Shown piece by piece: positions 6,086 to 37,995 of a DNA stretch of 57,874 nt. Under the pieces are notes generated by a model. It was not told where the DNA came from and did no database searches. It saw only the letters and a list, made by a program, of their open reading frames with translations. Both the position numbers and the translations under genes were made by a program. Position 1 is the first letter of the stretch; every line of letters starts with the position of its first letter. This stretch comes from Geminocystis sp. NIES-3708 (GTDB taxonomy: Bacteria > Cyanobacteriota > Cyanobacteriia > Cyanobacteriales > Cyanobacteriaceae), in assembly GCF_001548095.1 (NCBI RefSeq), contig NZ_AP014817.1, positions 1 to 57,874 on the forward strand, written 5' to 3'.

Positions 6086-6167
6086 TTCATTCTGATAAAT
6101 TACTAACTTTTGCCACTGTTGAGAAGCAAAAGAAAGATCTACTTCACTCGATAAATATTCTCCTTTT

Positions 6168-7439
6168 TTATGTTGATTTTAAAGATAAAAAATTTACGGC
6201 ATCTATCAATCTCTTATCAGTACTGGTAGATTCTAATTGTAAAATATTAAGTAACCTAAAAAATGCACTGCGATGACTTTTATAAAAACGCCAAATAAAA
6301 GGCAAATAATTATTCCCTTTATAAGCACTTATAGCTTGGTATTCTTCTAATAATTGTTCATATCCACCATAAGTTTTGAGTAAAGAATATATTTGATTAA
6401 AGAGTGTATCATTATGATTTTCTTGCTTATCTTTTTCCAACCCAAATAACATCAATATTTCCCCAAAAGCTGAAATCAACTTTTCCATTATTTCTTGTTG
6501 TCTTTCTTTTTGTTTTTGTAGTTCTAACTCAGCTAAGTTCTGAATTTTTTTCATTCTTTTTAAGAACATTTCTCCCAAATCATCCCAAGTTTTTTCTTGT
6601 TTTCGATGAATTAAACATATTAAAAGTGTCAATCTTTTTAGTTCATTAATATCTTTTAATTCTGAAGCATCTAAAGAATTTGCTACACTGGCAAAATAAC
6701 TAATTAATGATTTGTTTATTTCTGATAAAAACTGTTCTACATTACCAAAAGTATTTAACCATTTTTGATGTAATAATAAATCATTTAGATGATTTCTTGT
6801 GGCTTTTTTGGTGACTTTTTTTAGCTGATTATAAGGACTTCTTTGTTCGACTGGGTGAATTAGTAGTAAACTGTTTAAGGTTTCTCTATATTCAGGAGAT
6901 AATTGATTATTCACTTGTTCATAAATTAGAGCATGAACTAATGTTCGGATTCGGGCTATTTGTCGCTCTAAGAAGGAAAAAGAGGGTAATTCATATCTTT
7001 CTTTGACTAATTCTTCAATGGCTACATTAATTAAGTCCGCAGGATTTCCCATTAAATAAGCCTTTTCTTTTACCTTTATTTCTAAATATTCTTGGGCTTT
7101 GTTGTCAAATTTTTTGACTTTTATTTTCTCTCTAATTAAATGTTGATGGCGATGATAAGTTCTCGGATTTATATAACCAATTGTTAGTTCTTCAGATAAA
7201 CACAATATTTTTTTTATATGATTTATTATTGATAAGGGAATCTGTTCAAGTTTGGGGAAATATCCTAATCTTTGAAAACTTTTTAGTGCAACTAATAAAT
7301 TCAAATAATTATTATCATTTCTTGTATATTCAGTAGCGAAAAGTTTATCTTCTGTGGTTGGCGTATAAATATTTTTTAGCTCATTTGGAGTATAATAACG
7401 TTTGAAGCGAGGATAAGCAGTTCTTTCAATTGAGGTCAC
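6168..7439 (-). CDS. tnpA: Tn3 transposase amino-terminal half (transposon B, copy 1)
   Basis: Amino half of the transposase, matching residues 1 to about 425 of the intact homologue at 44625. The open frame runs up to 7508, but the homologue begins [11 protein letters not shown], so I chose the GTG at 7439 that begins [12 protein letters not shown]. The frame stops at TAA six codons after the alignment breaks, at the A4 run. The catalytic residues are all in the next frame. Confidence 0.82.
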   Translation of the reverse strand: MTSIERTAYPRFKRYYTPNELKNIYTPTTEDKLFATEYTRNDNNYLNLLVALKSFQRLGYFPKLEQIPLSIINHIKKILCLSEELTIGYINPRTYHRHQHLIREKIKVKKFDNKAQEYLEIKVKEKAYLMGNPADLINVAIEELVKERYELPSFSFLERQIARIRTLVHALIYEQVNNQLSPEYRETLNSLLLIHPVEQRSPYNQLKKVTKKATRNHLNDLLLHQKWLNTFGNVEQFLSEINKSLISYFASVANSLDASELKDINELKRLTLLICLIHRKQEKTWDDLGEMFLKRMKKIQNLAELELQKQKERQQEIMEKLISAFGEILMLFGLEKDKQENHNDTLFNQIYSLLKTYGGYEQLLEEYQAISAYKGNNYLPFIWRFYKSHRSAFFRLLNILQLESTSTDKRLIDAVNFLSLKST

Positions 7440-7495
7440 TTTTTTTTGTTTAATTATTAATTGCAAAACTCCAATATTATAAACATGACTTGTCA

Positions 7496-8113
7496 CTAAT
7501 CTTGCCAAAAAGATTCAAATCTCTGGGGAGATATATCTGTATAACGAACGGTGTAATGAATATTTTTATGCCCTAGATAAGCCTGAATTGCTCTGGTATC
7601 ATGTCCTTGAGATGCCAAATAATAACCACAAGCATGACGTAATTGGTGTGGATGTACTGGAAAGGGGATAGATGCTAATTTCCCAGCCCTCGCAATAATA
7701 TGACGAATAGTACGGGTAGTTAAGGGTGCGTGACGCTCAGAAACAAAGACATAACTGCTTTCTGGATACTTGCGTTTAAGTTCATGTAAAGCTCTTAGTT
7801 CTGGAGAACGTAATGGATGTATCGTATCATGTCCATGTTTTACTCGATGTATGTCAATATGCCCTCCTTTTGAATCTATATAATCCCATCTTAATGCTAC
7901 CAATTCGGCTGTCCTTAGTCCATGACGAAACATCTCAAGAATAATCGTTGAATCTCTGACTCCATGCCTTCCTACTTTTCGTGCTACTTTGATCATGGCG
8001 TTAATTTCATCAAGACGTAAATATTCCCTTTCACCGTCTGATTTTTTCTTCACTGGAGGTGGTGAAAAATGATACTTTGCTGAAAACAGAAGTGGAGTGG
8101 TTAAATTTAACAT
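7496..8113 (-). CDS. Small tyrosine recombinase (transposon B, copy 1)
   Basis: 205 residues, catalytic domain only. Catalytic positions are visible: Arg in MFRHGLRTAEL, His/Arg in HPHQLRHACG, His in LGHKNI, Tyr in VRYTDIS. The protein is identical to the copy at 11594-12211 and similar to the one at 44755. It ends just upstream of the transposase gene, with which it is co-directional. A 33-bp dyad (8152-8184) lies directly upstream of its start and is its likely target. Confidence 0.9.
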   Translation of the reverse strand: MLNLTTPLLFSAKYHFSPPPVKKKSDGEREYLRLDEINAMIKVARKVGRHGVRDSTIILEMFRHGLRTAELVALRWDYIDSKGGHIDIHRVKHGHDTIHPLRSPELRALHELKRKYPESSYVFVSERHAPLTTRTIRHIIARAGKLASIPFPVHPHQLRHACGYYLASQGHDTRAIQAYLGHKNIHYTVRYTDISPQRFESFWQD

Positions 8114-8151
8114 CTCTCTAACCCTTTAAAAATTATACTACTTTCTATTGT

Positions 8152-8184
8152 ACTTTGCCGAAAATATGATTAACTCGGCAATGT
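8152..8184. other. Putative core recombination site (transposon B, copy 1)
   Basis: Dyad ACTTTGCCGA, 13-bp spacer, TCGGCAATGT, the mirror image of 11523-11555. The pair is in inverted orientation, so recombination between them would invert about 3.3 kb rather than delete it. Confidence 0.62.
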
Positions 8185-8407
8185 TTTTTCCGTCTATAGT
8201 TTATTTAGTTATCTAAACGTTCTTATTGAAGTATTCTGTTGATTAAATCAGTTATGTAGTATTTAGTTTTGTTAAAATAGATTTTTGGAAACCTAACGGG
8301 AATAAGCGTTTCAACTATAAATGTCATGGTTTCTTGATATTGGTGTCCGATTTCGCACGTATCTCGGCTCTACGCCAATATATACTCTCTCAAGGAGATA
8401 AATTAGT

Positions 8408-10508: not shown

Positions 10509-11330
10509 ATGTTATTTTCATTTGGTATATTGCTTATGAAATTAAAAATAGGACAAAGATTAAAAGTACCCTATCAAGATAAAGTCTTGTCTGTGGAAGT
10601 TATCTCTCCTCATCAATTTGGTTATAACAAACCATCGATAGGAGTTAATTTCAGTATGCAGGAGAAATATACGGGGTTGTCTTCAACTACTTTAACACAA
10701 TGGTCTAAGGGTGCGAAAAAACGAGAACCCGATTTATTTATCGATGATGTTACAATGCCCAAAATTGAGCATCTAAGATTGCCTAAATCCAAGAATTTGT
10801 ATCCTGTTTACTCTACTCCAATCTATAGCAATGATCCTCACTCTGATGAACCCTACAGGGTTGAAAAGGTCATTGAAATTAGTGATTTCATTGATCTATG
10901 TTTTACCGCAATCTGTGAGGAAGAAATTAACCGTAGTACAAAACGTGAAATTAAGAAATTCTTACAATGGTTCACAGTTACTGGTTTTTACGCCCAAGTA
11001 TTCGTCTATATTAAAGGTAGTTTCAATAAAGCGGATAACGAACAGTTACAACAATGGTTAGCATCTCGTCTCGCTAACAAAGAAAACCGCAAATCTTACG
11101 CTAGTCTTATTGTCGAGCTTCGAGAAAATCCCGCTTTTTATAGTAATTTGACCTACCTTAACTTGTTTGGTAAACTAGCCAGTCAGATGAGGAAAGAGTG
11201 GAAGACTGTGGCGGGAGAAGAGGCGATCGCCCGCAATCATATCCCTGAAGCGATCGCTCTCGAAGCTATTGGCTTTGTAGAAAGAACAGTAGTTGACTTA
11301 TATACAGGTGATTTACGAGAAGCTCATATT
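10509..11330 (+). pseudogene. Putative HTH protein, 5' part (interrupted by transposon B copy 2)
   Basis: Codes for 274 residues up to REAHI, then runs into the terminal repeat of transposon B. Removing the transposon and one copy of the ATATT duplication joins it in frame to 15352-15582, giving about 350 residues. The family is not recognised. The rejoined protein ends in a helix-turn-helix like that of invertase-type recombinases and regulators. Two HIP1 octamers (11223, 11250) occur near the end. The first Met may be at 10509 or 10536. In the present state translation would end 22 residues into the transposon. Confidence 0.78.
11326..11330. repeat. Target-site duplication ATATT, left copy of transposon B2
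   Basis: ATATT immediately precedes the element and is repeated at 15347-15351 directly after it; the interrupted gene reads in frame when one copy and the element are removed. Confidence 0.9.
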
Positions 11331-11522
11331 GGCGTAGAGCCGAGATACGTGCGAAATCGGACACCAATATCAAGAAACCATGACATTTATAGTTGAAACG
11401 CTTATTCCCGTTAGGTTTCCAAAAATCTATTTTAACAAAACTAAATACTACATAACTGATTTAATCAACAGAATACTTCAATAAGAACGTTTAGATAACT
11501 AAATAAACTATAGACGGAAAAA

Positions 11523-11555
11523 ACATTGCCGAGTTAATCATATTTTCGGCAAAGT
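11523..11555. other. Putative core recombination site (transposon B, copy 2)
   Basis: Dyad ACATTGCCGA, 13-bp spacer, TCGGCAAAGT, 38 bp before the recombinase start. It matches the orphan site at 4184 and resembles 45411. Confidence 0.62.
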
Positions 11556-11593
11556 ACAATAGAAAGTAGTATAATTTTTAAAGGGTTAGAGAG

Positions 11594-12211
11594 ATGTTAA
11601 ATTTAACCACTCCACTTCTGTTTTCAGCAAAGTATCATTTTTCACCACCTCCAGTGAAGAAAAAATCAGACGGTGAAAGGGAATATTTACGTCTTGATGA
11701 AATTAACGCCATGATCAAAGTAGCACGAAAAGTAGGAAGGCATGGAGTCAGAGATTCAACGATTATTCTTGAGATGTTTCGTCATGGACTAAGGACAGCC
11801 GAATTGGTAGCATTAAGATGGGATTATATAGATTCAAAAGGAGGGCATATTGACATACATCGAGTAAAACATGGACATGATACGATACATCCATTACGTT
11901 CTCCAGAACTAAGAGCTTTACATGAACTTAAACGCAAGTATCCAGAAAGCAGTTATGTCTTTGTTTCTGAGCGTCACGCACCCTTAACTACCCGTACTAT
12001 TCGTCATATTATTGCGAGGGCTGGGAAATTAGCATCTATCCCCTTTCCAGTACATCCACACCAATTACGTCATGCTTGTGGTTATTATTTGGCATCTCAA
12101 GGACATGATACCAGAGCAATTCAGGCTTATCTAGGGCATAAAAATATTCATTACACCGTTCGTTATACAGATATATCTCCCCAGAGATTTGAATCTTTTT
12201 GGCAAGATTAG
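11594..12211 (+). CDS. Small tyrosine recombinase (transposon B, copy 2)
   Basis: 205 residues identical to the protein at 7496-8113. It has the catalytic pattern Arg (MFRHGLRTAEL), His-x-x-Arg (HPHQLRHACG), His (LGHKNI) and Tyr (VRYTDIS). It lacks the amino-terminal core-binding domain of XerC/D-size enzymes. It probably resolves cointegrates at 11523-11555. The start ATG follows a weak purine-rich site (GAGAG). Confidence 0.9.
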   Translation: MLNLTTPLLFSAKYHFSPPPVKKKSDGEREYLRLDEINAMIKVARKVGRHGVRDSTIILEMFRHGLRTAELVALRWDYIDSKGGHIDIHRVKHGHDTIHPLRSPELRALHELKRKYPESSYVFVSERHAPLTTRTIRHIIARAGKLASIPFPVHPHQLRHACGYYLASQGHDTRAIQAYLGHKNIHYTVRYTDISPQRFESFWQD

Positions 12212-12267
12212 TGACAAGTCATGTTTATAATATTGGAGTTTTGCAATTAATAATTAAACAAAAAAAA

Positions 12268-13539
12268 GTGACCTCAATTGAAAGAACTGCTTATCCTCGC
12301 TTCAAACGTTATTATACTCCAAATGAGCTAAAAAATATTTATACGCCAACCACAGAAGATAAACTTTTCGCTACTGAATATACAAGAAATGATAATAATT
12401 ATTTGAATTTATTAGTTGCACTAAAAAGTTTTCAAAGATTAGGATATTTCCCCAAACTTGAACAGATTCCCTTATCAATAATAAATCATATAAAAAAAAT
12501 ATTGTGTTTATCTGAAGAACTAACAATTGGTTATATAAATCCGAGAACTTATCATCGCCATCAACATTTAATTAGAGAGAAAATAAAAGTCAAAAAATTT
12601 GACAACAAAGCCCAAGAATATTTAGAAATAAAGGTAAAAGAAAAGGCTTATTTAATGGGAAATCCTGCGGACTTAATTAATGTAGCCATTGAAGAATTAG
12701 TCAAAGAAAGATATGAATTACCCTCTTTTTCCTTCTTAGAGCGACAAATAGCCCGAATCCGAACATTAGTTCATGCTCTAATTTATGAACAAGTGAATAA
12801 TCAATTATCTCCTGAATATAGAGAAACCTTAAACAGTTTACTACTAATTCACCCAGTCGAACAAAGAAGTCCTTATAATCAGCTAAAAAAAGTCACCAAA
12901 AAAGCCACAAGAAATCATCTAAATGATTTATTATTACATCAAAAATGGTTAAATACTTTTGGTAATGTAGAACAGTTTTTATCAGAAATAAACAAATCAT
13001 TAATTAGTTATTTTGCCAGTGTAGCAAATTCTTTAGATGCTTCAGAATTAAAAGATATTAATGAACTAAAAAGATTGACACTTTTAATATGTTTAATTCA
13101 TCGAAAACAAGAAAAAACTTGGGATGATTTGGGAGAAATGTTCTTAAAAAGAATGAAAAAAATTCAGAACTTAGCTGAGTTAGAACTACAAAAACAAAAA
13201 GAAAGACAACAAGAAATAATGGAAAAGTTGATTTCAGCTTTTGGGGAAATATTGATGTTATTTGGGTTGGAAAAAGATAAGCAAGAAAATCATAATGATA
13301 CACTCTTTAATCAAATATATTCTTTACTCAAAACTTATGGTGGATATGAACAATTATTAGAAGAATACCAAGCTATAAGTGCTTATAAAGGGAATAATTA
13401 TTTGCCTTTTATTTGGCGTTTTTATAAAAGTCATCGCAGTGCATTTTTTAGGTTACTTAATATTTTACAATTAGAATCTACCAGTACTGATAAGAGATTG
13501 ATAGATGCCGTAAATTTTTTATCTTTAAAATCAACATAA
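12268..13539 (+). CDS. tnpA: Tn3 transposase amino-terminal half (transposon B, copy 2)
   Basis: Amino half of the transposase. The open frame begins at 12199, overlapping the recombinase by 13 bp, but alignment with the intact homologue ([11 protein letters not shown]) favours the GTG at 12268. It ends at TAA (13537) just past the run TTTAAAAT (about 13520-13527). Deleting one A there gives LNQHKKGEYLS, matching [11 protein letters not shown] of the homologue. Confidence 0.82.
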   Translation: MTSIERTAYPRFKRYYTPNELKNIYTPTTEDKLFATEYTRNDNNYLNLLVALKSFQRLGYFPKLEQIPLSIINHIKKILCLSEELTIGYINPRTYHRHQHLIREKIKVKKFDNKAQEYLEIKVKEKAYLMGNPADLINVAIEELVKERYELPSFSFLERQIARIRTLVHALIYEQVNNQLSPEYRETLNSLLLIHPVEQRSPYNQLKKVTKKATRNHLNDLLLHQKWLNTFGNVEQFLSEINKSLISYFASVANSLDASELKDINELKRLTLLICLIHRKQEKTWDDLGEMFLKRMKKIQNLAELELQKQKERQQEIMEKLISAFGEILMLFGLEKDKQENHNDTLFNQIYSLLKTYGGYEQLLEEYQAISAYKGNNYLPFIWRFYKSHRSAFFRLLNILQLESTSTDKRLIDAVNFLSLKST

Positions 13540-13621
13540 AAAAGGAGAATATTTATCGAGTGAAGTAGATCTTTCTTTTGCTTCTCAACAGTGGCAAAAG
13601 TTAGTAATTTATCAGAATGAA

Positions 13622-15250
13622 ATGGGCATAAAAATTTTTCGCCGTCACTTTGAGACTTGTATTTTTTCTTATCTAGCTTTTGAATTAAAATCAGGAGATA
13701 TTTGTCTCAAAGGAAGTTCTGAATATGCCGATTGGCGAACACAATTATTAAGTTGGGATGAATGTGAAGTTATTGTAGATAATTATTGTGAAAATTTAGG
13801 TTTACCAAAAACGGCTCAAATTTTTGTTAATAATTTAAAAAGTTTCTTAATTCAAACAGCTGAAAAAGTTGATTTAAACTATCCTAATAATTCGAGTTTA
13901 ATTATTAATGATGAAGGAGAACCCATTTTAAAGAAAGTTACGAAAAATGAAGTTAGTTCTACTCTCAAAAATCTTGAAGTTATCATAGAAGAAAGAATGC
14001 CTAATTATAACTTAATAGATATTCTTAAAAATGTAAATTATTGGACTAATTTTACCAGACATTTTGCACCTCTGAGTGGTAGTGATCCTAAAATTGATAA
14101 TCCTACTGAACGTTATTTATTAACTACTTTTACTTATGGTTGTAATTTAGGTCCGTCTCAAGCAGAAAAACACATGAGAGAGATTATTTCCTCAAAATTA
14201 ATCTCTTTTATTAATCGCCGTCATATAAATACTGATAGTTTAAATAAGGCAATAAATGACATTATTAATCGTTATAATGTATTAGATTTACCCAAAGTTT
14301 GGGGTAACGGAAATGTGGCGGCGGCTGATGGTACTAAATATGATGTAAGAGAACAAAATTTACTCTCAGAATATCATATCAGATATGGTGGTTATGGTGG
14401 CATTGCTTATCATCATGTAGCGGATAAATATATTGCCTTATTTAGTCATTTTATTCCTTGTGGAACATGGGAAGCAGTATATATTATTGAGGGTTTATTT
14501 GAAAATAAATCTAACATTAAACCTGATACAATTCATAGTGATACTCAAGGACAAAGTACTCCTGTTTTTGCTCTATCGTACTTATTGGGTATTAAGTTAA
14601 TGCCTCGCATTAGAAATTGGAAAGATTTAGTCTTTTATCGTTATGATAAAAATACCGTTTATCAACATATAGATTCATTATTTACAGATACAATTAATTG
14701 GCAGTTAATTGAGACTCATTGGCAAGATTTAATGCAAGTAGTTTTATCTATTTATACGGGCAAAATATCCAGTGTTAGTTTATTAAGAAAGTTAAGTAAT
14801 TATAGTAGAAAAAATCGATTATATAAAGCCTTTAGGGAGTTAGGAAGAGTGATTAGAACTATCTTTTTACTCGAATATATTTCTGATTTAGAATTAAAGC
14901 AACAAATTACGGCGGCGACAAATAAAGTTGAGGCTTATAATGGCTTTTCTAAATGGTTATTTTTTGGTGGAGATAAGATTATTGCCACCAATGATAGAGA
15001 AGAAATGGAAAAAAGAATTAAATACAATGATTTAGTTTCTAATGCTGTTATTTTTCATAATGTTGTCGAGTTAACTAATATTTTACAGCAATTACAAAAA
15101 GAAGGTTATTTAATCGATAAAAAAGATGTAGCTTGTCTAAGTCCTTATTTAACCAGTCATGTGAAAAGATTTGGTGATTATCTTCTTAATCTTGCTGAAG
15201 TACTTCCTTCCTTAGAGCAATTTCAAATTGGCTCTTTGTTACAAAAATAG
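13622..15250 (+). CDS. tnpA: Tn3 transposase catalytic half (transposon B, copy 2)
   Basis: 542 residues with the DDE core ([38 protein letters not shown]). The same frame is open upstream of the ATG and encodes [20 protein letters not shown], as in the intact transposase, so the coding sequence really continues from the previous frame. A working protein would need a +1 frame change, or transposase supplied by transposon C, whose outer terminal repeats are closely related. Confidence 0.87.
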   Translation: MGIKIFRRHFETCIFSYLAFELKSGDICLKGSSEYADWRTQLLSWDECEVIVDNYCENLGLPKTAQIFVNNLKSFLIQTAEKVDLNYPNNSSLIINDEGEPILKKVTKNEVSSTLKNLEVIIEERMPNYNLIDILKNVNYWTNFTRHFAPLSGSDPKIDNPTERYLLTTFTYGCNLGPSQAEKHMREIISSKLISFINRRHINTDSLNKAINDIINRYNVLDLPKVWGNGNVAAADGTKYDVREQNLLSEYHIRYGGYGGIAYHHVADKYIALFSHFIPCGTWEAVYIIEGLFENKSNIKPDTIHSDTQGQSTPVFALSYLLGIKLMPRIRNWKDLVFYRYDKNTVYQHIDSLFTDTINWQLIETHWQDLMQVVLSIYTGKISSVSLLRKLSNYSRKNRLYKAFRELGRVIRTIFLLEYISDLELKQQITAATNKVEAYNGFSKWLFFGGDKIIATNDREEMEKRIKYNDLVSNAVIFHNVVELTNILQQLQKEGYLIDKKDVACLSPYLTSHVKRFGDYLLNLAEVLPSLEQFQIGSLLQK

Positions 15251-15346
15251 ATTTACTGAACCGTAAGCAGAATCAGCGTTTCAACTGTAAATGTCATGGT
15301 TTATTGACATTGGTGTCCGATTTCGCGCGTATCTCGGCTTCCCCCC

Positions 15347-15351
15347 ATATT
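15347..15351. repeat. Target-site duplication ATATT, right copy of transposon B2
   Basis: Same five bases as 11326-11330, directly after the terminal CCCCCC of the element. Confidence 0.9.
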
Positions 15352-15996: not shown

Positions 15997-18900
15997 ATGA
16001 TAATAGAAAACGGTAAATTTGTCGCCCCCCCTCTCAAAAAAATTATCGCCTCGCCCGAATTTGCCCCCTCTGAGCAAGGGTCAAAGCCTTATGGTGGTTT
16101 AAATCAGTCCAATGGTCAAAATTTTTGGTCTTCACAAAACTTAACAATGTGTCAGGAAATCTTGACAAAAAAAAGACCCCTGCGAACAGATATATCATTC
16201 TCCTACTGTTCCGAGTTGATTAATAAACCTGTCACAAATTCCGACAAGGCTAAAACTAATTTTCACTCCATGTCAGGAAATGTTGATAATATTATTGACA
16301 TATTCTGTAAAGGTTTCGCCGTTAGTCCTTTTCACTATACCAATAACCACAGAAGTAGTGATAATGCGACCGTTGCGGGTTTATTAATCGTCGATATTGA
16401 TAACCAAGAATGGGTTGAACCAGAAATCATTGATGGCAATAAGCCTCAAAATAATAATGGGCATGGCGATAACAACCAGAATGGCAATGACAATAACGAG
16501 GGAAAAATTGTTAAACAGAAGGTATATAAACACCAATTAACTTTAGAAGAGTACCAGTCGATCGATTTCTGCCGTAAATATACTTTTGCCATTACCACAG
16601 CAAGTCATACAGAAACATGGCACAGATTTCGAGTTTTTATGCCCTTACCCATGGATATTGATAAAACTACCTATGAGGTAGCTGTAAGGCATTTAAACGC
16701 CATTTTAAAGGGTGCTGTTGATATAAATGCCACTAACCCTAGTATCGGCTTTTATGGCAATAGTAACGGTATCCTCTACAAAGCTGATGAGTTTCAAGCC
16801 TTAGACTATGACTGGTTATCTCAATTACAACCCGAAGTTGACAAGATTAAGAAAAAACAGGAAAAACAAAAGCGTAAATTAGCCCGAAAAATAGCTAAAA
16901 ATCAGAAAAAATTAGCTAAAAGTGCTACTGCTAAGGATATTGTTGAAGCTCTATCTTATATACCATGTGATGATTATGATACTTGGACTAAAGTAGGTTT
17001 TGCTTTACATCATACTTTTAATGGTAGTGATGAAGGGCTAGAAATCTACGATAATTGGTCGTCTCAAGCTAATAATTACGACGGTAGAAAAGCTATTGAG
17101 TACAAATGGCTCTCATTTAACAAATCACGCACCGACAAGCCTATAACCATTGCTACGGTGTTTAAGTTGGCGATCGATCAAGGGTATAAACCACCAAGAA
17201 AGATTAGAAGAAGACTGGAGGCACGAGATTATTTTGAAGACTATAAAACCTTCTCTTATCCCATATCTCTGGAGTGTCATAAAAATTATGATAAAGGTGA
17301 AATAAGTCAAGAAATTCCCGCCGATAATCTCGATTATTTGAAGGATGAAATTAAGAATATTAACTCCTCTAAAAAAGGTTATTTCCCAGAGGAGATAATC
17401 GCCCAAATTCCCCGTCAAGGATTAGTTTTTATTCAGGGAGACATGGGCACTGGTAAAACTTACTTAGCAGAGAAAATTGTCGCCGAGTTTAAAGCTCAAG
17501 GTAAATATGTATTGTCTCCTGATAGTACCCGAAGCCTCTGCCAACAGTCGGCTAATCGCTATGGTATTTATTACAAAACCCATGATGATACTACCCCCAT
17601 TCAAAATTTAAGAAGTCAGGGCATTAAAACTACCTATGACAGCTTTGCTAAATACAAGGATGAAGCTCCTGATTGTATTATTTTTGATGAAATTTTGTCT
17701 AGTGAAAACCATTTATTATTAGGTGATACGGAGTTAAAACATAATCGAGAAGAAGTACTCTATGCCGTTAGAAATGTGGTGAAAAACTGCATTGATAAAG
17801 GTGGTTTAGTTATTTGTCTGGATGAAATGTTGGTGGATTTTTGCATCGATTTAATGAAGGATTTTGCAGGTGGTATTGAGCCTTTTATTATTGTTAATCA
17901 TTACCGTAATAACAACTATGAAACTTATCAATTACTTAATCCCGATGAGCCGAAAAAAATCCTCTTTACCATGCCGATATTGGGTTTAAAACCTTTTTAT
18001 TGTTGCGATAGCCAAAAAGAAGTTATCTCTCTTTATCAAGAATTATCGAAGACTTTCTCTGATAAAGTATTTAAACATATTCATCAAGGTAATGCTAATT
18101 TGCCAGAAAATCAGGAATTACTCAAGAATCCTACCCTCTGGTTACAACAGAATAAATGTGATGGTTTAATTGTTAGCCCGACTATTGTCTGTGGCTTCTC
18201 TATTGAGGGTAATTTCTTTGATGCGGTTATCGGTAATTTCTGCGGGGTTTTACCTGTTAACCAATGTCGTCAAATGTTACGACGCATCCGTAGTGATATT
18301 CCTCGTTATGTCTATGCTAGTAGTCATGGGTTGAATTATAGCAATGAGTTTGATTTTCAGGAAATCGCTGATAAGGCTATCTTGAAGAAAAAGAATAAGT
18401 TAGATTTACTCAAGTTGTCTTCTCTCATTGCTAAAAGCACTCTCCCTTCTGAATACATAAAAGTAGCGTTAAGTATGATGAATCCTGACACGGGCAAATG
18501 GGAAAATATTGAGCTTATCACCCAATCGAAATATATTGGTTTTACTAATGCGGGTAAGGCTAACTATCGGGAAAATATTTTTAATGAGTTGAGGGATAGT
18601 GGTAGCACCATCATTTATGGTTATAATTATGAGGAATTTATGGCAGAATTTGTGGAGGTAGGATTTACGGAAGAATCTTTACACGAGCATAGTCAAAAGG
18701 ATTTCAAGACTATTATTAAAACTCATAATGATGAGCGAATGAATCATCAGGCAGTATCTATCTCTTCTGGGGATACTACGGGCTTCGATTTGGATTCGGC
18801 TCAATATGTCTTAAAAAATCGCCATGGTATCAACCCTGAAACTCACCTGCCTTTACACTCGGAGGAGAAGATTGCGGGCGCTCAAAAATTTATCTATCAA

Positions 18901-19812
18901 GATTTATTCCCTACGGTGGAGTTAACCCTTGATTTTATTAAGGAATACTTACTCAAAGATAAGACAAAACTGAGAACGATCGAGCGATATTTTTGGTTTA
19001 ATAATTTTAGCTTATTGAAGAAGAAGGAAACCATTAAAGCTCTTAATTGGTTATCTAATTCCCGTCGCTTTGTCTATTTGGAGAAGGATTATGATGATTT
19101 ACTCCTAGAGATTCATCTGTTAAAGGTGCTAGAGGTGCAAAAATTCATCGATTTAGAGGGTTATTTTACCCGAAAGGATAAATGTGTCAAGAGCTTCTTT
19201 AAACGTGCCTTAAAACACAAGCAAGAGTTACGAGATTATTTCAACATTATCGTTACCGCCGACAGTAATCCTATTATCATCTTGAAAAATTTACTCAAGT
19301 CGATTGGTATTAAGTTGAAGTCAAGCGTTAGAAAAGTCAATAAGGTTAATACTAGAGTCTATCTGATCGATCAATCATATCTTGATGATGATATAAGACA
19401 ATCGGTATTAACATCTTATCAAATGCGTAATGCTGGGTTAAAAACTGTCAAAGGAAAAATGAAAAAAATTAGTGAAGGTTTTGAGGAAAACAAAAACTCT
19501 GAAACTACTATCAATAAAGGGTTAGTGGGTGATAGCAACGGCTATAAAAACGACTCTATATCCTATAATAATCAAGCTAATTCTGTAGCGGGTTTAAAGG
19601 TAACAACAAAGATTTCAACTGAGGGGTTAAAACAAGGGGAAATTTTCCAAACAGAAAGAGGAATTATCGAAGGTAATAAAAATGCTAAAACTGTTATCAA
19701 AAATGAATTTGAAGCCAATAACAACAGCTATGAAAACCCTTCTATATCCTATAATAATCAAACGGATTCTGTAGTTACTCAAGCTCAAACTCAAGACGAT
19801 GACAAATACTGA
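15997..19812 (+). CDS. Plasmid replication protein, CyRepA1-like (primase-helicase)
   Basis: 1271 residues. The amino part resembles an archaeo-eukaryotic primase (LLIVDIDNQEW about residues 127-137, then HTETWHRFRVFMPL about 205-220). It is followed by a PriCT-2 domain (about 308-400). A helicase-type ATPase has Walker A GDMGTGKT (about 485) and Walker B DCIIFDEI (about 560). This architecture fits the cyanobacterial CyRepA1 plasmid replication family, so it is the likely initiator of this replicon. The last 100 residues are Asn/Ser-rich with a duplicated DSISYNNQ/PSISYNNQ block, encoded by identical 21-bp DNA repeats at 19555 and 19741. Confidence 0.85.
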   Translation: MIIENGKFVAPPLKKIIASPEFAPSEQGSKPYGGLNQSNGQNFWSSQNLTMCQEILTKKRPLRTDISFSYCSELINKPVTNSDKAKTNFHSMSGNVDNIIDIFCKGFAVSPFHYTNNHRSSDNATVAGLLIVDIDNQEWVEPEIIDGNKPQNNNGHGDNNQNGNDNNEGKIVKQKVYKHQLTLEEYQSIDFCRKYTFAITTASHTETWHRFRVFMPLPMDIDKTTYEVAVRHLNAILKGAVDINATNPSIGFYGNSNGILYKADEFQALDYDWLSQLQPEVDKIKKKQEKQKRKLARKIAKNQKKLAKSATAKDIVEALSYIPCDDYDTWTKVGFALHHTFNGSDEGLEIYDNWSSQANNYDGRKAIEYKWLSFNKSRTDKPITIATVFKLAIDQGYKPPRKIRRRLEARDYFEDYKTFSYPISLECHKNYDKGEISQEIPADNLDYLKDEIKNINSSKKGYFPEEIIAQIPRQGLVFIQGDMGTGKTYLAEKIVAEFKAQGKYVLSPDSTRSLCQQSANRYGIYYKTHDDTTPIQNLRSQGIKTTYDSFAKYKDEAPDCIIFDEILSSENHLLLGDTELKHNREEVLYAVRNVVKNCIDKGGLVICLDEMLVDFCIDLMKDFAGGIEPFIIVNHYRNNNYETYQLLNPDEPKKILFTMPILGLKPFYCCDSQKEVISLYQELSKTFSDKVFKHIHQGNANLPENQELLKNPTLWLQQNKCDGLIVSPTIVCGFSIEGNFFDAVIGNFCGVLPVNQCRQMLRRIRSDIPRYVYASSHGLNYSNEFDFQEIADKAILKKKNKLDLLKLSSLIAKSTLPSEYIKVALSMMNPDTGKWENIELITQSKYIGFTNAGKANYRENIFNELRDSGSTIIYGYNYEEFMAEFVEVGFTEESLHEHSQKDFKTIIKTHNDERMNHQAVSISSGDTTGFDLDSAQYVLKNRHGINPETHLPLHSEEKIAGAQKFIYQDLFPTVELTLDFIKEYLLKDKTKLRTIERYFWFNNFSLLKKKETIKALNWLSNSRRFVYLEKDYDDLLLEIHLLKVLEVQKFIDLEGYFTRKDKCVKSFFKRALKHKQELRDYFNIIVTADSNPIIILKNLLKSIGIKLKSSVRKVNKVNTRVYLIDQSYLDDDIRQSVLTSYQMRNAGLKTVKGKMKKISEGFEENKNSETTINKGLVGDSNGYKNDSISYNNQANSVAGLKVTTKISTEGLKQGEIFQTERGIIEGNKNAKTVIKNEFEANNNSYENPSISYNNQTDSVVTQAQTQDDDKY

Positions 19813-20961: not shown

Positions 20962-21030
20962 AGGTTTTGCTTAATCTTACAATCAACTTCTAAGCAGGGG
21001 ATTCAAGTAGTAAGATAAAGAGATTAGACA

Positions 21031-21052
21031 CTGTATATTTTAAACTAGACAG
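21031..21052. promoter_or_regulatory. Dyad operator touching the start codon of the 21053 gene
   Basis: A 22-bp imperfect palindrome from CTGTATA to CTAGACAG ends directly before the ATG. Its AGACA half-site (21047) lies 21 bp from another AGACA at 21026. The same half-site recurs inside the gene. The paralogue at 45973 has a matching dyad in the same place, which points to autoregulation. Confidence 0.6.
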
Positions 21053-21667
21053 ATGAAAAAGTATTATATTAATGACTTGCAAGAAAGATATAATCTCAAG
21101 ACTAGACAATCTGTGTACGATAGACTTAAAGCCATAGAAATACAAGTAGAGAAGGAAGGGAATAAAAGCTATGTAACCGAGACTGTGTTAGAGAAATTAG
21201 ACCAACTGCAAGAACATTTAAACTTAGGGGGAAGCATCAAAACCTTTACTCCGACTGTTAAAACTACTGTCCATTCCAAAATAGACAATGAAAATTTTGA
21301 GTCACCAATAGACAGTATAAATTCTGTACTAGACAAGGCAAATTCTTCCCCAGACAGTGTAAATTCTGCACTAGACAAAGCTAATTCCTTCCTAGACAGT
21401 AATATCCAATATGTACAGCTAGACTTATTTGAAACTCTGATGGAGAGAGTGGAAGAAGTAGTGGAAAAAATGATACCGATTAACCCCATTAGTCATTGGG
21501 AGAAATTAGATATAGCAGTAGAAAGAGGATATATACTCAGTAGCCAAGAAGTAAAAAACCTAGTGGGTACTAAACCTAATGGTACAAAATGGACAAGGGG
21601 AGCATTCGTTTTTACCCGAACTGGAAAGATAGGTAATCAAGCAGGATGGACGATTAGTCGGCTTTGA
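21053..21667 (+). CDS. Putative DNA-binding protein with an internal half-site array
   Basis: 204 residues, paralogous to 45973-46596. The amino part (residues 1-65, YYINDLQERYNLKTRQSVYD onward) is strongly conserved between the two and looks like a DNA-binding domain. A variable Ser/Asn/Asp-rich linker follows (about 78-125, repeats of the type IDSINSVLDKANS). The carboxy part (about 145-204) has EVKNLVGTKPNG and KIGNQAGW conserved in both. The linker is encoded by the AGACA array at 21283-21427. No known family is recognised. A role in plasmid segregation or copy control is only an inference. Confidence 0.75.
   Translation: MKKYYINDLQERYNLKTRQSVYDRLKAIEIQVEKEGNKSYVTETVLEKLDQLQEHLNLGGSIKTFTPTVKTTVHSKIDNENFESPIDSINSVLDKANSSPDSVNSALDKANSFLDSNIQYVQLDLFETLMERVEEVVEKMIPINPISHWEKLDIAVERGYILSSQEVKNLVGTKPNGTKWTRGAFVFTRTGKIGNQAGWTISRL
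21283..21427. repeat. Half-site array inside the coding region (AGACA, 21/27-bp spacing)
   Basis: Seven AGACA/AGAC motifs start at 21283, 21310, 21331, 21352, 21373, 21394 and 21421. The spacings are 27, 21, 21, 21, 21 and 27. Around them AATTCT recurs 9-10 bp downstream in the central four units. Each motif places an Asp codon written GAC. Confidence 0.85.
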
Positions 21668-29942: not shown

Positions 29943-32900
29943 GTGGCTAATGTAATATTTAGGGTGATAACGATGTCTCAAGTTCGGGGAATAGCAGATA
30001 AATTACAACCAGAGGTAATTGTCAAGGGTTCATTATTCCCCGAACCAATCAAGATTATAACAACGATCGCGCTCGGAGAATCCCTGAAAGTAATTGGTAG
30101 TGGGGTAAAAAGTCAAAAGACTTACCAACCCATACTGAATTTAGAGCAGTTATTACAGTTGGAGATAAGTCCTGAAACAGAGCCATTTGACGGTAAAGCA
30201 GAGCATTTTCGTCTCGGTATAGAGGCTTTTAGATGGGGATTAGCCTATGAATACGATCCCTATTTTTCCTTGGCGATCGCCCGTGTGGATCCATTACCCC
30301 ACCAATTAGAAGCCGTTTACGATTACTTTTTAAAGTTAGCTAGAGTACGTTTTCTCCTCGCCGATGATCCTGGGGCGGGTAAAACCATTATGGCAGGATT
30401 GTTAATCAAAGAGCTGAAAATTAGGGGTTTAGCCCAACGTATTTTAATTGTAGCCCCTGCTAATCTTACTTTTCAGTGGCAGAGGGAGTTAAAGGATAAA
30501 TTTAGAGAAGACTTTGATGTGATTAAAGGGGATATTTTACGGGCTAACTACGGCAAAAACCCCTGGCAGGAAAACAATCAGGTGGTGACTTCCATCTCTT
30601 GGGTATCCCGTATCGAAGATGCTAAAGAAAGTTTATTGCGTAGTCATTGGGATTTGGTTATCGTGGATGAAGCCCATAAAATGAGTGCTTATAGTAGTGA
30701 TAAGAAAACACTAGCTTACCAACTAGGGGAAAGACTATCCCAAATGACAGATCATTATCTGTTAATGACGGCAACTCCCCATAAAGGAGATCCAGCTAAC
30801 TTCTGTCTCTTCTTAGAGTTACTGGATAAAGATGTCTATGGCGATGTTAAAAGTCTGGAAGAAGCGATGCAACGTAATACTGCTCTCTTTTACCTCAGAC
30901 GTACCAAAGAAGCCCTCGTTACCTTCCCAGATCCCCATACAGGAGAAGTGACAAAGTTATTTACCAATCGCAGAGTAGAGACGATCGAGTTTTTCATCGA
31001 TAATGATGAAAAACATTTCTACGATGCTTTAAGCCGTTATGTGGAAGATAAATCCATTAAAGCCTCTCATGATGACTCTGCCAGAGGTAGGGCTTTAGGT
31101 TTCACTATGGCAATGTTGCAAAGACGTTTTGCTTCGAGTATTTACGCTGTACGTCGTAGTTTGGAACGGATGAAAGATAAAAGGGAAGGCATTTTAGAGA
31201 ATCCCGAAGCCTATCGCCGAGAGCAAATCAGTCGGAAACTACCAGAGGATTTTAACGACTTAACCGAAGCAGAACAACAACGTATTATCGAAGATTTGGA
31301 ATCAGTCGTAGCATCTGTTGAACCAGAAGACTTACGGGATGAGATTGCCCAGTTATCTCGTCTCATTACCTTAGCGTTAGACCTAGAAAAACGAGAAGTA
31401 GAGTCCAAATTGGTTAAATTAAGGGATGTGATTAATCAACAGGGAATGTTTACTAATGAAGGAAAGAAAGATCGCACCTATGTACCGATGAAGTTGTTAA
31501 TTTTCACCGAACATAAGGATACCCTAGACTATCTGGTAGAAAAGTTAAGGGGGTGGGGCTTGTCTGTTACCCAAATCCATGGGGGGATGAAAATTGGAGA
31601 TAGGGATATTCCTAATACCCGTATTTATGCCGAAAGGGAATTTCGAGAAAGTGCACAGGTATTAGTCGCCACAGAAGCTGCAGGAGAGGGCATTAATTTA
31701 CAATTTTGCTGGTTTATGATTAACTACGATATTCCTTGGAATCCCATTCGTTTAGAGCAACGTATGGGGCGTATTCACCGTTATGGGCAAGAAAAAGACT
31801 GTCTGATTTTCAACTTTGTCTCCATGAATACCCGTGAAGGTAGGGTGTTATGGAAATTATTTGAACGCATCCATGCCATAGAAAGTGATTTAGATCCTAA
31901 TGGTACTGGTTTTATCTTTAACGTATTGGGAGATATTTTTCCTGCTAACCAGTTAGAGCGTTTGATTAGGGATATGTATGTAAATAATCAAACGGAAGAC
32001 TCCATCAAAGCTCGTATTGTTGAACAAGTGGATAAAAAGCATTTTCAGCAAATCACTGACTCAGCCCTGGAAGGATTAGTCAAACGAGAGTTAAACTTAT
32101 CGAAAATCATTGGACAAACCGCCGAGGCAAAGGAAAAACGATTAGTGCCAGAAGCTATCGCTGACTTTTTCCTTCAAGCTGCCCCCCTAGCAGGTATTCA
32201 GCCGAAGGAAGTCAAAAAACAACATCATACTTACCGTATTGGTAAATTACCCCGTACCCTTTGGAGTATCGGTGATGAATTAGAAACACGATTTGGTAAA
32301 CTGGGCAGGGAATATAAGACTATTTGTTTTGACCAAAAATTATTACAAGACGATCCTACTTTAGAATGGGTAACACCGGGGCATCCCCTCTTTGAAACCG
32401 TCAGAGAATCCGTTATTCGTCAAACCCAAGAGGCTTTGGCAAGGGGAGCGGTATTTTATGACTTAAAACGGACTTCCCCTAGTTGTTTGGATGTTTTCAG
32501 TGCTTCTATTACCGATGGAAAGGCGAGATCGCTCCATCAACGCTTATTTGTGGTAGAAACCACAGACACAGGGGAAATGTATATTCGTCAACCAACCATC
32601 TTCCTTGATTTAACCTTACCCGATGGAGAAGTTAACATACCCGATAAAAACCTTTTACCGAACCGTCAACAAGTAGAACAAGCCTTGTTAGAGAAAGCCT
32701 TAGAGTCTTTTTTAACCGAAATCAAAGCCCAAAGAGAAAAAGAAATAACTACCATTGAAAATCATTTAGAAATCAGTCTAAATACCGTGATCGATCGAGT
32801 ACAATGTCAGTTTGCGGAATTAATTATGCAGAAGGAATCAGGTTCAACAGAAACAGGATTAGACGGCAGAATCCAACAGTTTGAAAATAGACTATTTGAA

Positions 32901-33428
32901 TTAAATGGGCGTTTAGAGTCTCGTCGAGAGGCATTACAGCAAGAAAAAAATTGTACCATCGGCAATATTCATCATCATGGTAGAGCATGGGTAATACCCC
33001 ACCCAGAACGTCATTCTCCCGAAATAGCGAAAATGGTTAGTAATGCTGAAATTGAACGTATTGCCATCGAGAAGGCGATCGAATTTGAACAACAGAGAGG
33101 TTGGAAGGTTGAAAGTGTGGAAACCCAAAACAGGGGGTTTGATTTAATTTCCCGTAAACCCCACACAGAAGACGAACAAACCGCAGTAGCAGTAAGGTTT
33201 ATCGAGGTAAAAGGAAGGGCAGGGGTTGATGGAGTAGCTTTAACCAATAACGAATATAAGAAAGCTAGTCAACTAAAGGATGATTATTGGCTATATGTAG
33301 TTTTTAACTGTGCTACTAATCCCGAAATACACTTAATTCAAAATCCTGTTAAGTTGGGGTGGAAACCATTAATTAAAGTTGAACATTATCAGGTGGATGC
33401 TAAGGAAATCTTAGAATTTAGAATGTAA
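29943..33428 (+). CDS. SNF2-type helicase with DUF3883 domain (Hma helicase)
   Basis: 1161 residues from GTG 29943; the ATG at 29973 (MSQVRGIADK) is an alternative. The SF2 helicase core has Walker A DDPGAGKT (about 142), the DEAH box VDEAHK (about 240), TATPHKGD, and the carboxy lobe motifs EAAGEGINLQ and QRMGRIHRYGQ. The last 130 residues are a DUF3883-type domain (IEVKGRAGVDGVALTNNE) that resembles a nuclease-fold module and carries a Glu-x-Lys. Similar helicases act in DISARM and other anti-phage systems. Next come a DUF1156 methylase and a DUF499 ATPase, so it is read as the helicase of an Hma-type defence system. Confidence 0.88.
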   Translation: MANVIFRVITMSQVRGIADKLQPEVIVKGSLFPEPIKIITTIALGESLKVIGSGVKSQKTYQPILNLEQLLQLEISPETEPFDGKAEHFRLGIEAFRWGLAYEYDPYFSLAIARVDPLPHQLEAVYDYFLKLARVRFLLADDPGAGKTIMAGLLIKELKIRGLAQRILIVAPANLTFQWQRELKDKFREDFDVIKGDILRANYGKNPWQENNQVVTSISWVSRIEDAKESLLRSHWDLVIVDEAHKMSAYSSDKKTLAYQLGERLSQMTDHYLLMTATPHKGDPANFCLFLELLDKDVYGDVKSLEEAMQRNTALFYLRRTKEALVTFPDPHTGEVTKLFTNRRVETIEFFIDNDEKHFYDALSRYVEDKSIKASHDDSARGRALGFTMAMLQRRFASSIYAVRRSLERMKDKREGILENPEAYRREQISRKLPEDFNDLTEAEQQRIIEDLESVVASVEPEDLRDEIAQLSRLITLALDLEKREVESKLVKLRDVINQQGMFTNEGKKDRTYVPMKLLIFTEHKDTLDYLVEKLRGWGLSVTQIHGGMKIGDRDIPNTRIYAEREFRESAQVLVATEAAGEGINLQFCWFMINYDIPWNPIRLEQRMGRIHRYGQEKDCLIFNFVSMNTREGRVLWKLFERIHAIESDLDPNGTGFIFNVLGDIFPANQLERLIRDMYVNNQTEDSIKARIVEQVDKKHFQQITDSALEGLVKRELNLSKIIGQTAEAKEKRLVPEAIADFFLQAAPLAGIQPKEVKKQHHTYRIGKLPRTLWSIGDELETRFGKLGREYKTICFDQKLLQDDPTLEWVTPGHPLFETVRESVIRQTQEALARGAVFYDLKRTSPSCLDVFSASITDGKARSLHQRLFVVETTDTGEMYIRQPTIFLDLTLPDGEVNIPDKNLLPNRQQVEQALLEKALESFLTEIKAQREKEITTIENHLEISLNTVIDRVQCQFAELIMQKESGSTETGLDGRIQQFENRLFELNGRLESRREALQQEKNCTIGNIHHHGRAWVIPHPERHSPEIAKMVSNAEIERIAIEKAIEFEQQRGWKVESVETQNRGFDLISRKPHTEDEQTAVAVRFIEVKGRAGVDGVALTNNEYKKASQLKDDYWLYVVFNCATNPEIHLIQNPVKLGWKPLIKVEHYQVDAKEILEFRM

Positions 33429-33484
33429 CATTCAGAATCTATCGCAGTTCTAACACTACCCTGAAACCTGCCGTATGATATGAC

Positions 33485-33796
33485 CTAATAGAAGTTCTCA
33501 TAACTATCTTCATCTAAGATACCTTCATCATCATAATAGTCATCATCCGGTTCATTATAGGTTTCATCATAATAGTCATCTTCCCAATTATCTTCCGAGT
33601 CTTCTTTATAATTGTTATTCTGTGTTACTGGTTGTTGATAGGCATAATTAGCACCATAACTGGGTGTAGTTTGATTATTATTGATCCAGCTATTTTGACA
33701 TTTAGGACATTTAATTGTTGCCGTATTGCTTAAAGTGTTAGGAATGCGGAGTTTTTGGCTACAATAACGACAGTCGATAATTATTTTACTATTCAT
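33485..33796 (-). CDS. Small zinc-ribbon protein with acidic tail
   Basis: 103 residues on the opposite strand to the defence genes. The amino part has CRYC and CPKC, a four-Cys zinc ribbon like MJ0042-type domains. The rest is Asn/Gln then Asp/Glu/Tyr-rich and probably disordered. Its role is unknown. It separates helicase and methylase genes, so the methylase may need its own promoter. Confidence 0.65.
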   Translation of the reverse strand: MNSKIIIDCRYCSQKLRIPNTLSNTATIKCPKCQNSWINNNQTTPSYGANYAYQQPVTQNNNYKEDSEDNWEDDYYDETYNEPDDDYYDDEGILDEDSYENFY

Positions 33797-33947
33797 ATAC
33801 TACTATACGTATCTAATTGAAAATATTAATAGTTAGAATATATCACATTTCTAACATATATATAGATTAAGATTTACTAACCAATAGTGAATATTTGTTA
33901 CAAAATGAGGTAAAACTAATATCTAGTAAGGTATTAATAAGCAATCC

Positions 33948-36900
33948 ATGACCAGCTATCCTAAGCGACTAATTGAAGTTGATCTCCCCATTAAACAAAT
34001 ATCTGCCCATGCGAGACGGGAAAAATCCATTCGTCACGGGCATATCTCTACTTTACATATTTGGTGGGCTAGACGACCATTAGCGGCTTGTCGGGCGGTG
34101 ATTTGTGCCTCTTTATGGTTAGATCCTGCGGACGAAAATTGTCCTCCCTATTTCCGTGAGGAAGCCATTAAAATCATTACAGATTTTGCTAAGAAAGTAG
34201 ATAGGAATGAGAATAATTTAGCTAGTAAGCATTGCAGTACGGAAAACTGGGAGAAATGGCAAGTTTTAGCCAAAGACGACAATAAATTAGCTCCTAATAA
34301 TCCTAGTCATCTAAATATATTACGGTATCGGTTATTGGATTTTATCGCTGATTTTGCTAACTGGGATAATTCCACCCAACCCGATTATTTAGAAACCAGT
34401 CGCCTGTTAACCCAAGTCGCCCACGAGGCTAATGGTGGTATTCCCGATACTAAACCTTTGGTAGTAGATCCCTTTGCAGGGGGTGGTGCGATACCCTTAG
34501 AGGCTTTACGGGTGGGGGCGGATGCCTTTGCTTCGGACTTAAATCCAGTGGCGGTGTTACTGAATAAGGTAGTGTTGGAATATATCCCCAAGTATGGGCA
34601 AACTTTAGCCGATGAGGTGCGTAAATGGGGGCAGTGGGTGAAGCAGGAGGCGGAAAAGGAGTTAAGTCAGTTTTATCCTACCGATGAGGATGGCAGTACA
34701 CCCATTGCTTATTTATGGGCAAGGACAATTATTTCGGAAGCACCAGACGATGGTACGGGGATACCTGTGGAAGTGCCGTTAATGCGGAGTATGTGGTTAG
34801 CGAAGAAGAAGGGTAAGAATAAGGCTTTGCGGTGGGTTAGGGATGCTCAGGGTATGGTAGTTACGGAAACGGTGGAAAAAACATACAGTGATGGTGTCAC
34901 AAGGAAAGTAAGACAACCTTTGTTAGAGATATTTGAACCGAAAAGTGCTAAGGAAGTGGCAGAGGGTACGGTTAAACGGGGTTCGGCTACTTGTCCAGTA
35001 ACAGGGTTTACTACTCCTGTAGCTTCGGTGCGAAGTCAATTAAAACCGAGAAAAGGCGGTGCTAATGATGCTCGTTTATTCTGTGTGGTAAGTACGAAGG
35101 AAACACAACAGGGGCGGTTTTATCGTTTACCTAATAACCAAGATTTAGAAGCAGTTAATCAGGCAAGTTTGGAGTTAGAAAAAAGGCTTACTTCATCTAA
35201 TATTAAAAAAGGACAAAAAGAACAATCTGAATTAAGTTTAATACCGAATGAACCAACACCAAAAGGTGGAGGCAGTGGTGCTGGTAGAGCTTTTTCTCAA
35301 CGTAATTATGGCATGGATACCTTTGATAATTTATTTACTAATCGTCAATTGTTAGCCTTAACAACCTTAGTAAATTTGGTGAATAAGGTAGGGGAAATGT
35401 TGGCTAATGGCTATGATTTAGAGTTAAATGAAAGTGGTAAATATAAAGTTATTAAACAGTCTAAAAATAATAATATTAACGACAATTTGGGGAATAATTT
35501 ATATATTGATAATTTAGGTTTAGCTGAAGCAGTACAAACTTGTTTAAGTTTCATAATTGATAAATTAGCAGATAAAAATAGTTCTGTTTGTCGTTGGAAA
35601 TCATCAGCCGAATATATGGCAGGAAATACATTTAGTCGTCAAGCATTACCCATTGTATTTGACTTTTGCGAGTCTAATCTTTTTGGTAATGTTACAGGTG
35701 ATATTTATTCCGAAGTTGAATGGGTTGTAAAATTACTTTTACACGGGACAAATTCATTAAAATATATTGGACAAACTCAACAGTCATCAGCAACACACCA
35801 TCCTTTACCAGATGACTTTATTCAAGCCTTTATTTCAGATCCTCCTTATTATGATGCAGTACCTTATTCCGACTTATCCGATTTCTTCTATGTGTGGTTG
35901 AAAAGGACTTTACCACCATCTTTAAAATCTACTTTTGCCGATGAATTAACACCGAAAGAAGAAGAATGTATCGTAGATCCAGTTAAGGGAAAAGATAAAG
36001 CCTATTTTGAAAAGCAAATGGGTTTAGCTATGAATGAAGGTTGTCGTATTCTAAGCCCTAACGGTATCGGGGTAATTGTATTTGCCCATAAATCCACCGC
36101 AGGATGGGAAGCACAACTACAGGCGATGGTGGATGCAGGATGGACTATTACCGCCTCTTGGGCAATAGATACGGAAATGGGATCTCGACTTCGTGCCATG
36201 AATTCCGCCGCCCTTGCTTCCTCTATTCACCTAGTGTGTCGCCCTAGAACCCCTGTGGATAATGGGGGAATAATCTCTAATATTGGGGATTGGCGAGACA
36301 TATTGCAGGAATTACCCGTGAGAATTAGAGAATGGCTACCACGATTAGCTAGTGAAGGAGTAGTGGGTGCAGATGCCATTTTTGCCTGTTTAGGACCTGC
36401 TTTAGAGATATATTCCCGTTATGACAGTGTGGAAAAAGCATCGGGGGATATGGTGACTTTGCGAGAATACCTTGAACAAGTTTGGGCGGTGGTATCCCAA
36501 GAAGCCCTAACTATGATATTTAGCGATGTGGATACCTCTGGTTTGGAAGAAGATGCCCGACTTACGGCGATGTGGTTATGGACTCTTTCCACCGATACCA
36601 CCGATAGCAGTGATGACTCTGCTGGTGATAATGATAGTCAGGAGGAGGAAGAAGAAGAAAACAGTAGTAAGAGTAAGAAAATTAGCGGATTTAGTCTGGA
36701 ATACGATGCCGCGCGTAAAATTGCTCAGGGTTTAGGAGTTTATTTAGAGGCATTAACTACCCTTGTGGAAATCAAAGGGGATAAAGCCCGTTTACTACCT
36801 GTTACAGAACGCTCTGAGGTGTTATTAGGGAATAAAAAAGTCGAGATTAAGCCCAAACAGAAGAAAAAGCAAGGTAATCCCACTATTACGGGTATGGAAG

Positions 36901-37169: not shown

Positions 37170-37213
37170 GAATTAAGAATTTTCAATAAACTGAATTAAA
37201 AGAGGAAAAAATT

Positions 37214-37459
37214 ATGAGAGCTTATGAATTTACTACTGAAATAACCGATGGCAATATTCGTATTCCTATAGATTATTTAAACAACCTAAATAGAGGGAGA
37301 AATGTCAAAGTTATAATCTTGACAGAAGATGAAACTTTACCTAAACAAAAATCTGACGAAAAAGAGAAATTATCAGATTATCTTCTCATGCCCGAAATTG
37401 AAGATAATGAGGATTTATTTATCAGAGATAAAGACACAGGGAGAGAGATTAATTTATGA
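37214..37459 (+). CDS. vapB: Antitoxin of a VapBC-type pair
   Basis: 81 residues. It starts with an AbrB/DUF2281-like amino domain (YEFTTEITDGNIRIPIDYLN) and has a charged tail that would wrap the toxin. Its stop overlaps the toxin start (ATGA). It lies 44 bp after the methylase gene, preceded by AGAGGA, and is probably co-transcribed with the defence genes. Confidence 0.78.
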   Translation: MRAYEFTTEITDGNIRIPIDYLNNLNRGRNVKVIILTEDETLPKQKSDEKEKLSDYLLMPEIEDNEDLFIRDKDTGREINL

Positions 37460-37890: not shown

Positions 37891-37995
37891 TGAAGTACAA
37901 TAATTTACCTATAAATATTCCCACTTCCCATTACCATCAACAAAACCTAACATCAACATATTTTGCTGTAATTCTTAGACTTTTCTAAATTGTAA

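Follow-up and report, generated by a model that had tools for sequence, protein, structure and literature searches.

What does a gene gain by carrying what look like protein-binding sites inside its own coding sequence? The question is raised by a 204-residue open reading frame at 21053–21667 of contig NZ_AP014817.1 of Geminocystis sp. NIES-3708; the stretch analysed, here called the window, comprises this contig in full (G000:C3, 57,874 bp). Short AGACA motifs lie directly upstream of this gene and recur in the segment that codes for its predicted disordered linker. That the gene product binds the linker DNA as an array of sites had been put forward in the original prediction. We consider this very probable in view of the 7-mers that upstream and linker DNA share in relatives, the change of the motif from lineage to lineage and its partial co-variation with the recognition helix. 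As a whole explanation, the most likely function is that of an autoregulated, partition-like maintenance element, an assignment that we regard as probable on balance.

Sites in and around the window gene

The gene and its parts are located as follows.
21025–21052, + strand: candidate non-coding operator, with TAGACA at 21025 and 21046 and an imperfect dyad at 21031–21052 adjoining the ATG
21053–21667, + strand: family gene (P0001, 204 residues), an open reading frame with relatives in genomes and plasmid records
21053–21247, + strand: coding part for the N-terminal MerR/RacA-type winged helix (residues 1–65)
21257–21481, + strand: coding part for the linker (residues 69–143), predicted to be disordered and holding the array
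21282–21424, + strand: array of seven (T/C)AGAC(A) sites
21482–21664, + strand: coding part for the conserved C-terminal domain (residues 144–204)

Within the gene, AGACA occurs at 21283, 21310, 21331, 21352, 21373 and 21394 and AGAC at 21421, with start-to-start spacings of 27, 21, 21, 21, 21 and 27 bp; upstream, AGACA stands at 21026 and 21047, 21 bp apart. These positions and spacings are exactly those first described, and additional copies that had not been listed lie at 21104 (AGACA, in another reading frame) and at 21099, 21122, 21180 and 21199 (AGAC). The dyad described as abutting the ATG is present, but its AGACA half-sites are imperfect, the left arm being TGTAT rather than TGTCT. 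A helical register, as originally proposed, does not hold as a fixed rule, with 27 bp corresponding to about 2.6 turns and relatives using spacings of 12, 21, 24, 33, 36 bp and others. All seven aspartates of the linker are indeed encoded by GAC; the companion claim that aspartate elsewhere in the gene is frequently GAT has a slim basis in the gene itself (two GAC and two GAT outside the linker) but agrees with usage in the window, where GAC makes up 141 of 640 Asp codons over 16 open reading frames.

The linker contains five TAGACA, compared with a mean of 0.42 and a maximum of four in 5000 synonymous recodings with codons drawn at window usage (p = 2e-4). A 42-bp/21-bp tandem repeat is detected in the array, and the recoding null ignores the copying of codons by tandem duplication, which makes the test look stronger than is warranted; the case was therefore tested with relatives. 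YAGACA occurs at 61 sites in the window and reaches at least four within 200 bp at two places only, the linker of this gene and that of a second copy on the same molecule. When all 120 permutations of the motif are compared, the highest maximum per 200 bp (seven) belongs to the actual motif, followed by one other with six and four others with five. The second copy has these features.
45952–45971, no strand assigned: dyad TGTCTATTTTAAAACAGACA directly upstream of the second copy, before the ATG, with perfect half-sites
45973–46596, + strand: second gene copy, whose protein is 61% identical
46188–46351, + strand: linker array of the second copy, with six YAGACA on the + strand, one TGTCTA on the − strand and one TAGACT
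Its + strand sites are spaced by 21, 27, 21, 27 and 21 bp, and 80 bp of the array form a repeat that is 92.5% identical.

Constraint and co-variation among relatives

To assemble the family, the pSYSM member L037, which has no start codon, and 21 partial hits were dropped; in some of these partial hits one gene appears in two loci, and two frame-broken copies on pGM3709_07 are among them. Identical proteins were counted once, and with 12 members added later the set reached 46, of which 35 non-redundant members were left after a 70% identity cut. For each of these, the 150 bp of its own upstream DNA was compared with its own linker. The two share 441 7-mer positions, 2.7 times the 166 obtained with recoded linkers, and compared with 151 for shuffled upstream DNA; the same test on the DNA coding for the N-terminal and C-terminal domains gives 193 versus 155 and 172 versus 164, respectively. 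When upstream regions and linkers are paired across members, the mean is 175 and the maximum 315 (10,000 permutations). Taken one by one against recoding, 21 of the 35 members reach p of at most 0.05 and 10 of them at most 0.01. In the non-coding upstream DNA of 33 relatives (a count that leaves out L003 and L006), CTGGAC, TGGACA, ATAGAC and TAGACA have the top z-scores of all 6-mers (13.8 to 9.9), with 18–22 copies versus 2–3 expected (TGGACA 21 versus 2.7, TAGACA 21 versus 3.0); the top count of any 6-mer per upstream shuffle averages 12.6, with a maximum of 24. The 7-mer sharing and the 6-mer enrichment are independent of any choice of motif, whereas the survey of spacings and frames, the YAGACA cluster and Asp counts and the clade-motif recoding tests use motifs picked after inspection of the sequences.

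With such clade motifs, recoding gives p below 0.05 for 16 linkers and 0.055 for one among 23 members, some of which are closely related; no clade-motif site was found in the linkers of the six members L010, L047, L025, L052, L028 and L029. The motifs occupy both strands of the linkers and stand in more than one frame in five of them (L017, L038, L074, L075 and L078). In 14 members picked by motif, Asp codons number 68 GAC and 19 GAT in the linker versus 26 and 47 outside it (Fisher p 6.5e-8, a value that is too small owing to related members); L009 shows the opposite usage in its linker, with two GAC to five GAT. The pDongsha4b gene has an upstream layout like that of the window gene, its dyad likewise adjoining the ATG, with perfect half-sites. 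While the site persists, the linker peptide varies: between L008 and L021, close relatives from different contigs of a single genome assembly, Asp residues within the sites become Asn or Tyr and the site pattern is retained. Homologues that kept the peptide, used GAT freely and lost the motif had been named in advance as grounds for refutation; the outcome is mostly the opposite, with many of the diverged relatives listed keeping the motif in both linker and upstream DNA, apart from the six site-less linkers.

The motif differs by lineage, and upstream and linker copies shift jointly, in part together with residues of the recognition helix. SRQA at residues 17–20 pairs with TGGACA in the group of L051, L055, L057, L071 and L073 and, separately, in L036, which is placed within the TRQS/TAGACA group (support 91/82, not starred); most members with TRQS or VRQS have TAGACA. 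Relative to L021, the change Q19K in L008 pairs with TAAACA or TATACA replacing TAGACA, a change at the third base seen in linker and upstream DNA alike. L038 likewise carries K19 and has a different site (ACGACA/CTACACA). Exceptions are L017, with TAGACA and different helix residues, L010 and L047 (TRQS), with both motifs, and L051, L055 and L073, which have some TAGACA. These few events point to reading of the array by the winged helix and predict a protein–site code of residues 19–20 against bases 2–3 of the motif.

The protein family and its replicons

The family layout consists of a predicted MerR/RacA-type winged helix, a disordered linker and a small folded C-terminal domain; in the predicted structure of the window protein, the predicted local distance difference test score (pLDDT) is under 50 for residues 69–143. 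Compared with solved folds, the N-terminus matches RacA (5i44) best, with pSK1 Par (8csh) among the best matches, and the closest folds include RacA and pSK1 Par in complex with centromere DNA. At the level of the fold it is thus a MerR-type winged helix; at the level of Pfam (E up to 0.01), MerR_1 is matched by one and HTH_17 by two of 24 N-termini. The window protein has no match to RepA_N (PF06970), DUF536 or a ParB-like family in Pfam at E up to 1 and, at E up to 0.01, no match to any NCBIfam family, and at 204 residues it is not a large helicase-type protein of the kind of the CyRepA1 and CyRepX replication proteins.

Relatives of P0001 occur in 15 of 60 related genomes, and a profile search of the phylum gave matches in 46 of 386 genomes. 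Among 72,556 plasmid records, 38 match the family, all of them cyanobacterial by organism name; some members are found on large contigs that are probably chromosomal. We fetched and searched 18 of the 38 records, which hold one to four family matches each in differing gene neighbourhoods. A ParA of the AAA_31 type was not found on 12 of the 18 and is present on six, the base rate in cyanobacterial plasmids not having been measured. No publication on the family was found in a search mostly confined to open-licence papers with few subscription ones, and the family is so far unnamed.

The C-terminal domain also recurs towards the end of open frames that are about 300–340 residues long, some on large contigs (G042:C1, G129:C1 and others). 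On pGM3709_07 of Geminocystis NIES-3709 (L033, at 3384 and 8067), two gene copies have their frame broken by an identical short insertion at an identical codon, and both retain the upstream and linker sites. On pANACY.06 (L073), a gene annotated as a protelomerase (405–1439) accompanies the family gene; the record is given as circular.

The window is very probably a plasmid, as it is a whole contig with a CyRepA1 gene (NF042913, 203 bits with a cut-off of 200) and no ParA detectable in a search of the AAA_31 type (no match at E up to 0.1).
15997–19812, + strand: CyRepA1-family replication gene (NF042913)

Elsewhere on the molecule, a Tn3-family element with an integrase gene is present as two inverted 4,025-bp copies (4357–8381 and 11326–15350, 99.98% identical), with a third, related copy at 41711–44624 (82% identical). 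A defence-like cluster at 29943–41019 gives NCBIfam matches to DISARM DrmD and to DUF1156 and DUF499 anti-phage families, all under cut-off, and is followed by type I restriction genes (HsdM-like at 50746, HsdR at 55091). A nucleotidyltransferase and HepT-like pair at 47835–48396 is a probable toxin–antitoxin module, the HepT-like match ending at profile position 102 of 120.

Proposed function and comparison with known systems

The array, its constraint at the DNA level, its match to the upstream sites, the partial co-variation with the helix and the plasmid setting can be read from the sequences themselves. From these we propose a self-contained plasmid-maintenance gene under its own control. 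Its winged-helix N-terminus would bind a short motif that differs between lineages (TAGACA in the present case); copies of this motif stand at the promoter and ATG and are repeated as an array in the DNA coding for the protein's own disordered linker, a peptide constrained loosely enough to leave the DNA free to carry sites. If the sites at the promoter and those within the gene were bound jointly, a single nucleoprotein complex would arise; it would both repress the gene and mark the plasmid, the mark most likely serving a segregation that needs no ParA, as with pSK1 Par, RacA or StbA. We are highly confident that the protein binds the array and consider autorepression likely; partition as the main role has, in our view, slightly less than even odds. 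The partition-like role is suggested by the self-binding arrays, the RacA/Par-like domain, the plasmid location, the solo gene and the 12 of 18 records without a detected ParA, and the originally proposed centromere-like or copy-control role is plausible. Weighing against the proposal, the window gene taken alone does not stand out in the 7-mer sharing test (p = 0.17 versus recoding), ParA and ParB genes adjoin the family gene on pMIC7113.01, and a ParA-type ATPase (adenosine triphosphatase) gene and a ribbon-helix-helix gene lie near it in Tolypothrix. The initial observation is confirmed and its interpretation supported in part.

Some of the same features would fit a replication initiator or regulator with origin sites in its gene, in which the linker DNA would act as origin or iterons and the C-terminal domain would recruit host factors. 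The three-part layout of winged helix, site-coded linker and conserved C-terminus equals that of pSK41 Rep (PMC5703833), PMC3155836 places oriV within repC in repABC plasmids, and four of the 18 records (pDongsha4b, pSYSM, Nostoc unnamed1 and pMIC7113.01) have no CyRepA1 or CyRepX match. Yet CyRepA1 is over cut-off on eight of the 18 plasmids, and six have a CyRepX-like match, which is weak in one case; a CyRepA1 is also present on the window molecule itself, so that autonomous replication driven by this gene would be unnecessary. On 10 molecules the gene lies no nearer to CyRepA1 than expected by chance (combined p 0.67), some plasmids hold at least two copies of the gene, and there is no RepA_N Pfam match. 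Given the frequent presence of a CyRepA1 or CyRepX relative and the random proximity, a replication role is less likely than maintenance, and we regard it as improbable.

A plain autoregulator, or a plasmid-wide repressor such as KfrA, would instead use the in-gene sites as extra operators, as a roadblock or as a titration store through which copy number is sensed. The dyads adjoining the ATG of the window gene, the second copy and the pDongsha4b gene agree with this, as does the frequency of MerR-type folds among regulators, and passages of PMC7783346 describe RA3 KfrA as binding to five 9-bp repeats that overlie its promoter and as having an effect on stability as well. The in-gene sites, however, seem to exceed in number what repression would need, and the window has no further YAGACA cluster of at least four per 200 bp and hence no visible regulon of array type, single sites not having been examined; we rate such a role as rather unlikely. 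It is very improbable that 7- and 9-residue peptide repeats spread by tandem duplication, with the DNA motif as a by-product. The tandem repeats of both arrays and the copying of codons by duplication favour such a minisatellite, but diverged relatives also carry the motif in their non-coding upstream DNA, and it occurs on either strand and in more than one frame. Relatives that keep the peptide and lose the motif would then be expected, and the data are mostly the reverse, the peptide varying while the site stays and, in L008 versus L021, in-site Asp giving way to Asn or Tyr under an unchanged pattern.

A more far-reaching form of the maintenance proposal seems doubtful: a widespread ATPase-free segregation module in which one gene would supply both the centromere-binding protein and, in its linker codons, the centromere, recognition-helix changes being matched by concerted site changes that give the replicons of one cell different specificities (as in L008 versus L021). 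Cyanobacterial plasmid replication and inheritance are poorly known; the family offers a small, testable element and a clear example of a single DNA segment that would be protein linker and multi-site binding array together. Natural specificity switches may be useful for dissecting incompatibility, and the element is a possible part for cyanobacterial vectors.

pSK1 Par of Staphylococcus has a repeat centromere and is autoregulated. The present family resembles it and RacA/RocS in being a solo gene with a MerR-type winged helix, and no partner nucleoside triphosphatase of the AAA_31 type was detected on the window molecule, other types not having been tested. Passages of PMC11500499 term pSK1 Par a single protein partition system and give it a central coiled coil, DUF536 and a C-terminal amphipathic stretch, which are not found here; the present linker is instead predicted to be disordered and is followed by a folded C-terminal domain, and the gene itself contains further sites. 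pSK41-type RepA_N initiators share the winged-helix N-terminus, the linker-coded sites and the conserved C-terminus, with four Rep boxes inside the gene in linker-coding DNA (PMC5703833); the boxes here are sequence sites, and the present family differs in lacking a RepA_N match, in its predicted C-terminal fold and in having a separate replication gene alongside. For SCP2 of Streptomyces, passages of PMC12260392 describe parS within parT, the gene for its own binding protein, as one 18-bp inverted repeat with a ParA partner; here a multi-site array is found with no ParA detected and no ParB-like Pfam match, unlike a ParB/ParT-type system. The R388 StbA–stbDRs and RA3 KfrA systems, as described in passages of PMC3098194 and PMC7783346, are stability proteins that bind short direct-repeat arrays at their own promoters, a likeness in the arrangement of sites; the repeats described for them stand at promoters. 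The original prediction of an unusual one-gene system does not stand as a claim of something without precedent, pSK41 rep and SCP2 parT both carrying sites in coding regions. In view of the pSK41 Rep, repABC, SCP2, StbA and KfrA precedents, what is new is the unnamed family, the multi-site array and the lineage-wide agreement between upstream and linker sites.
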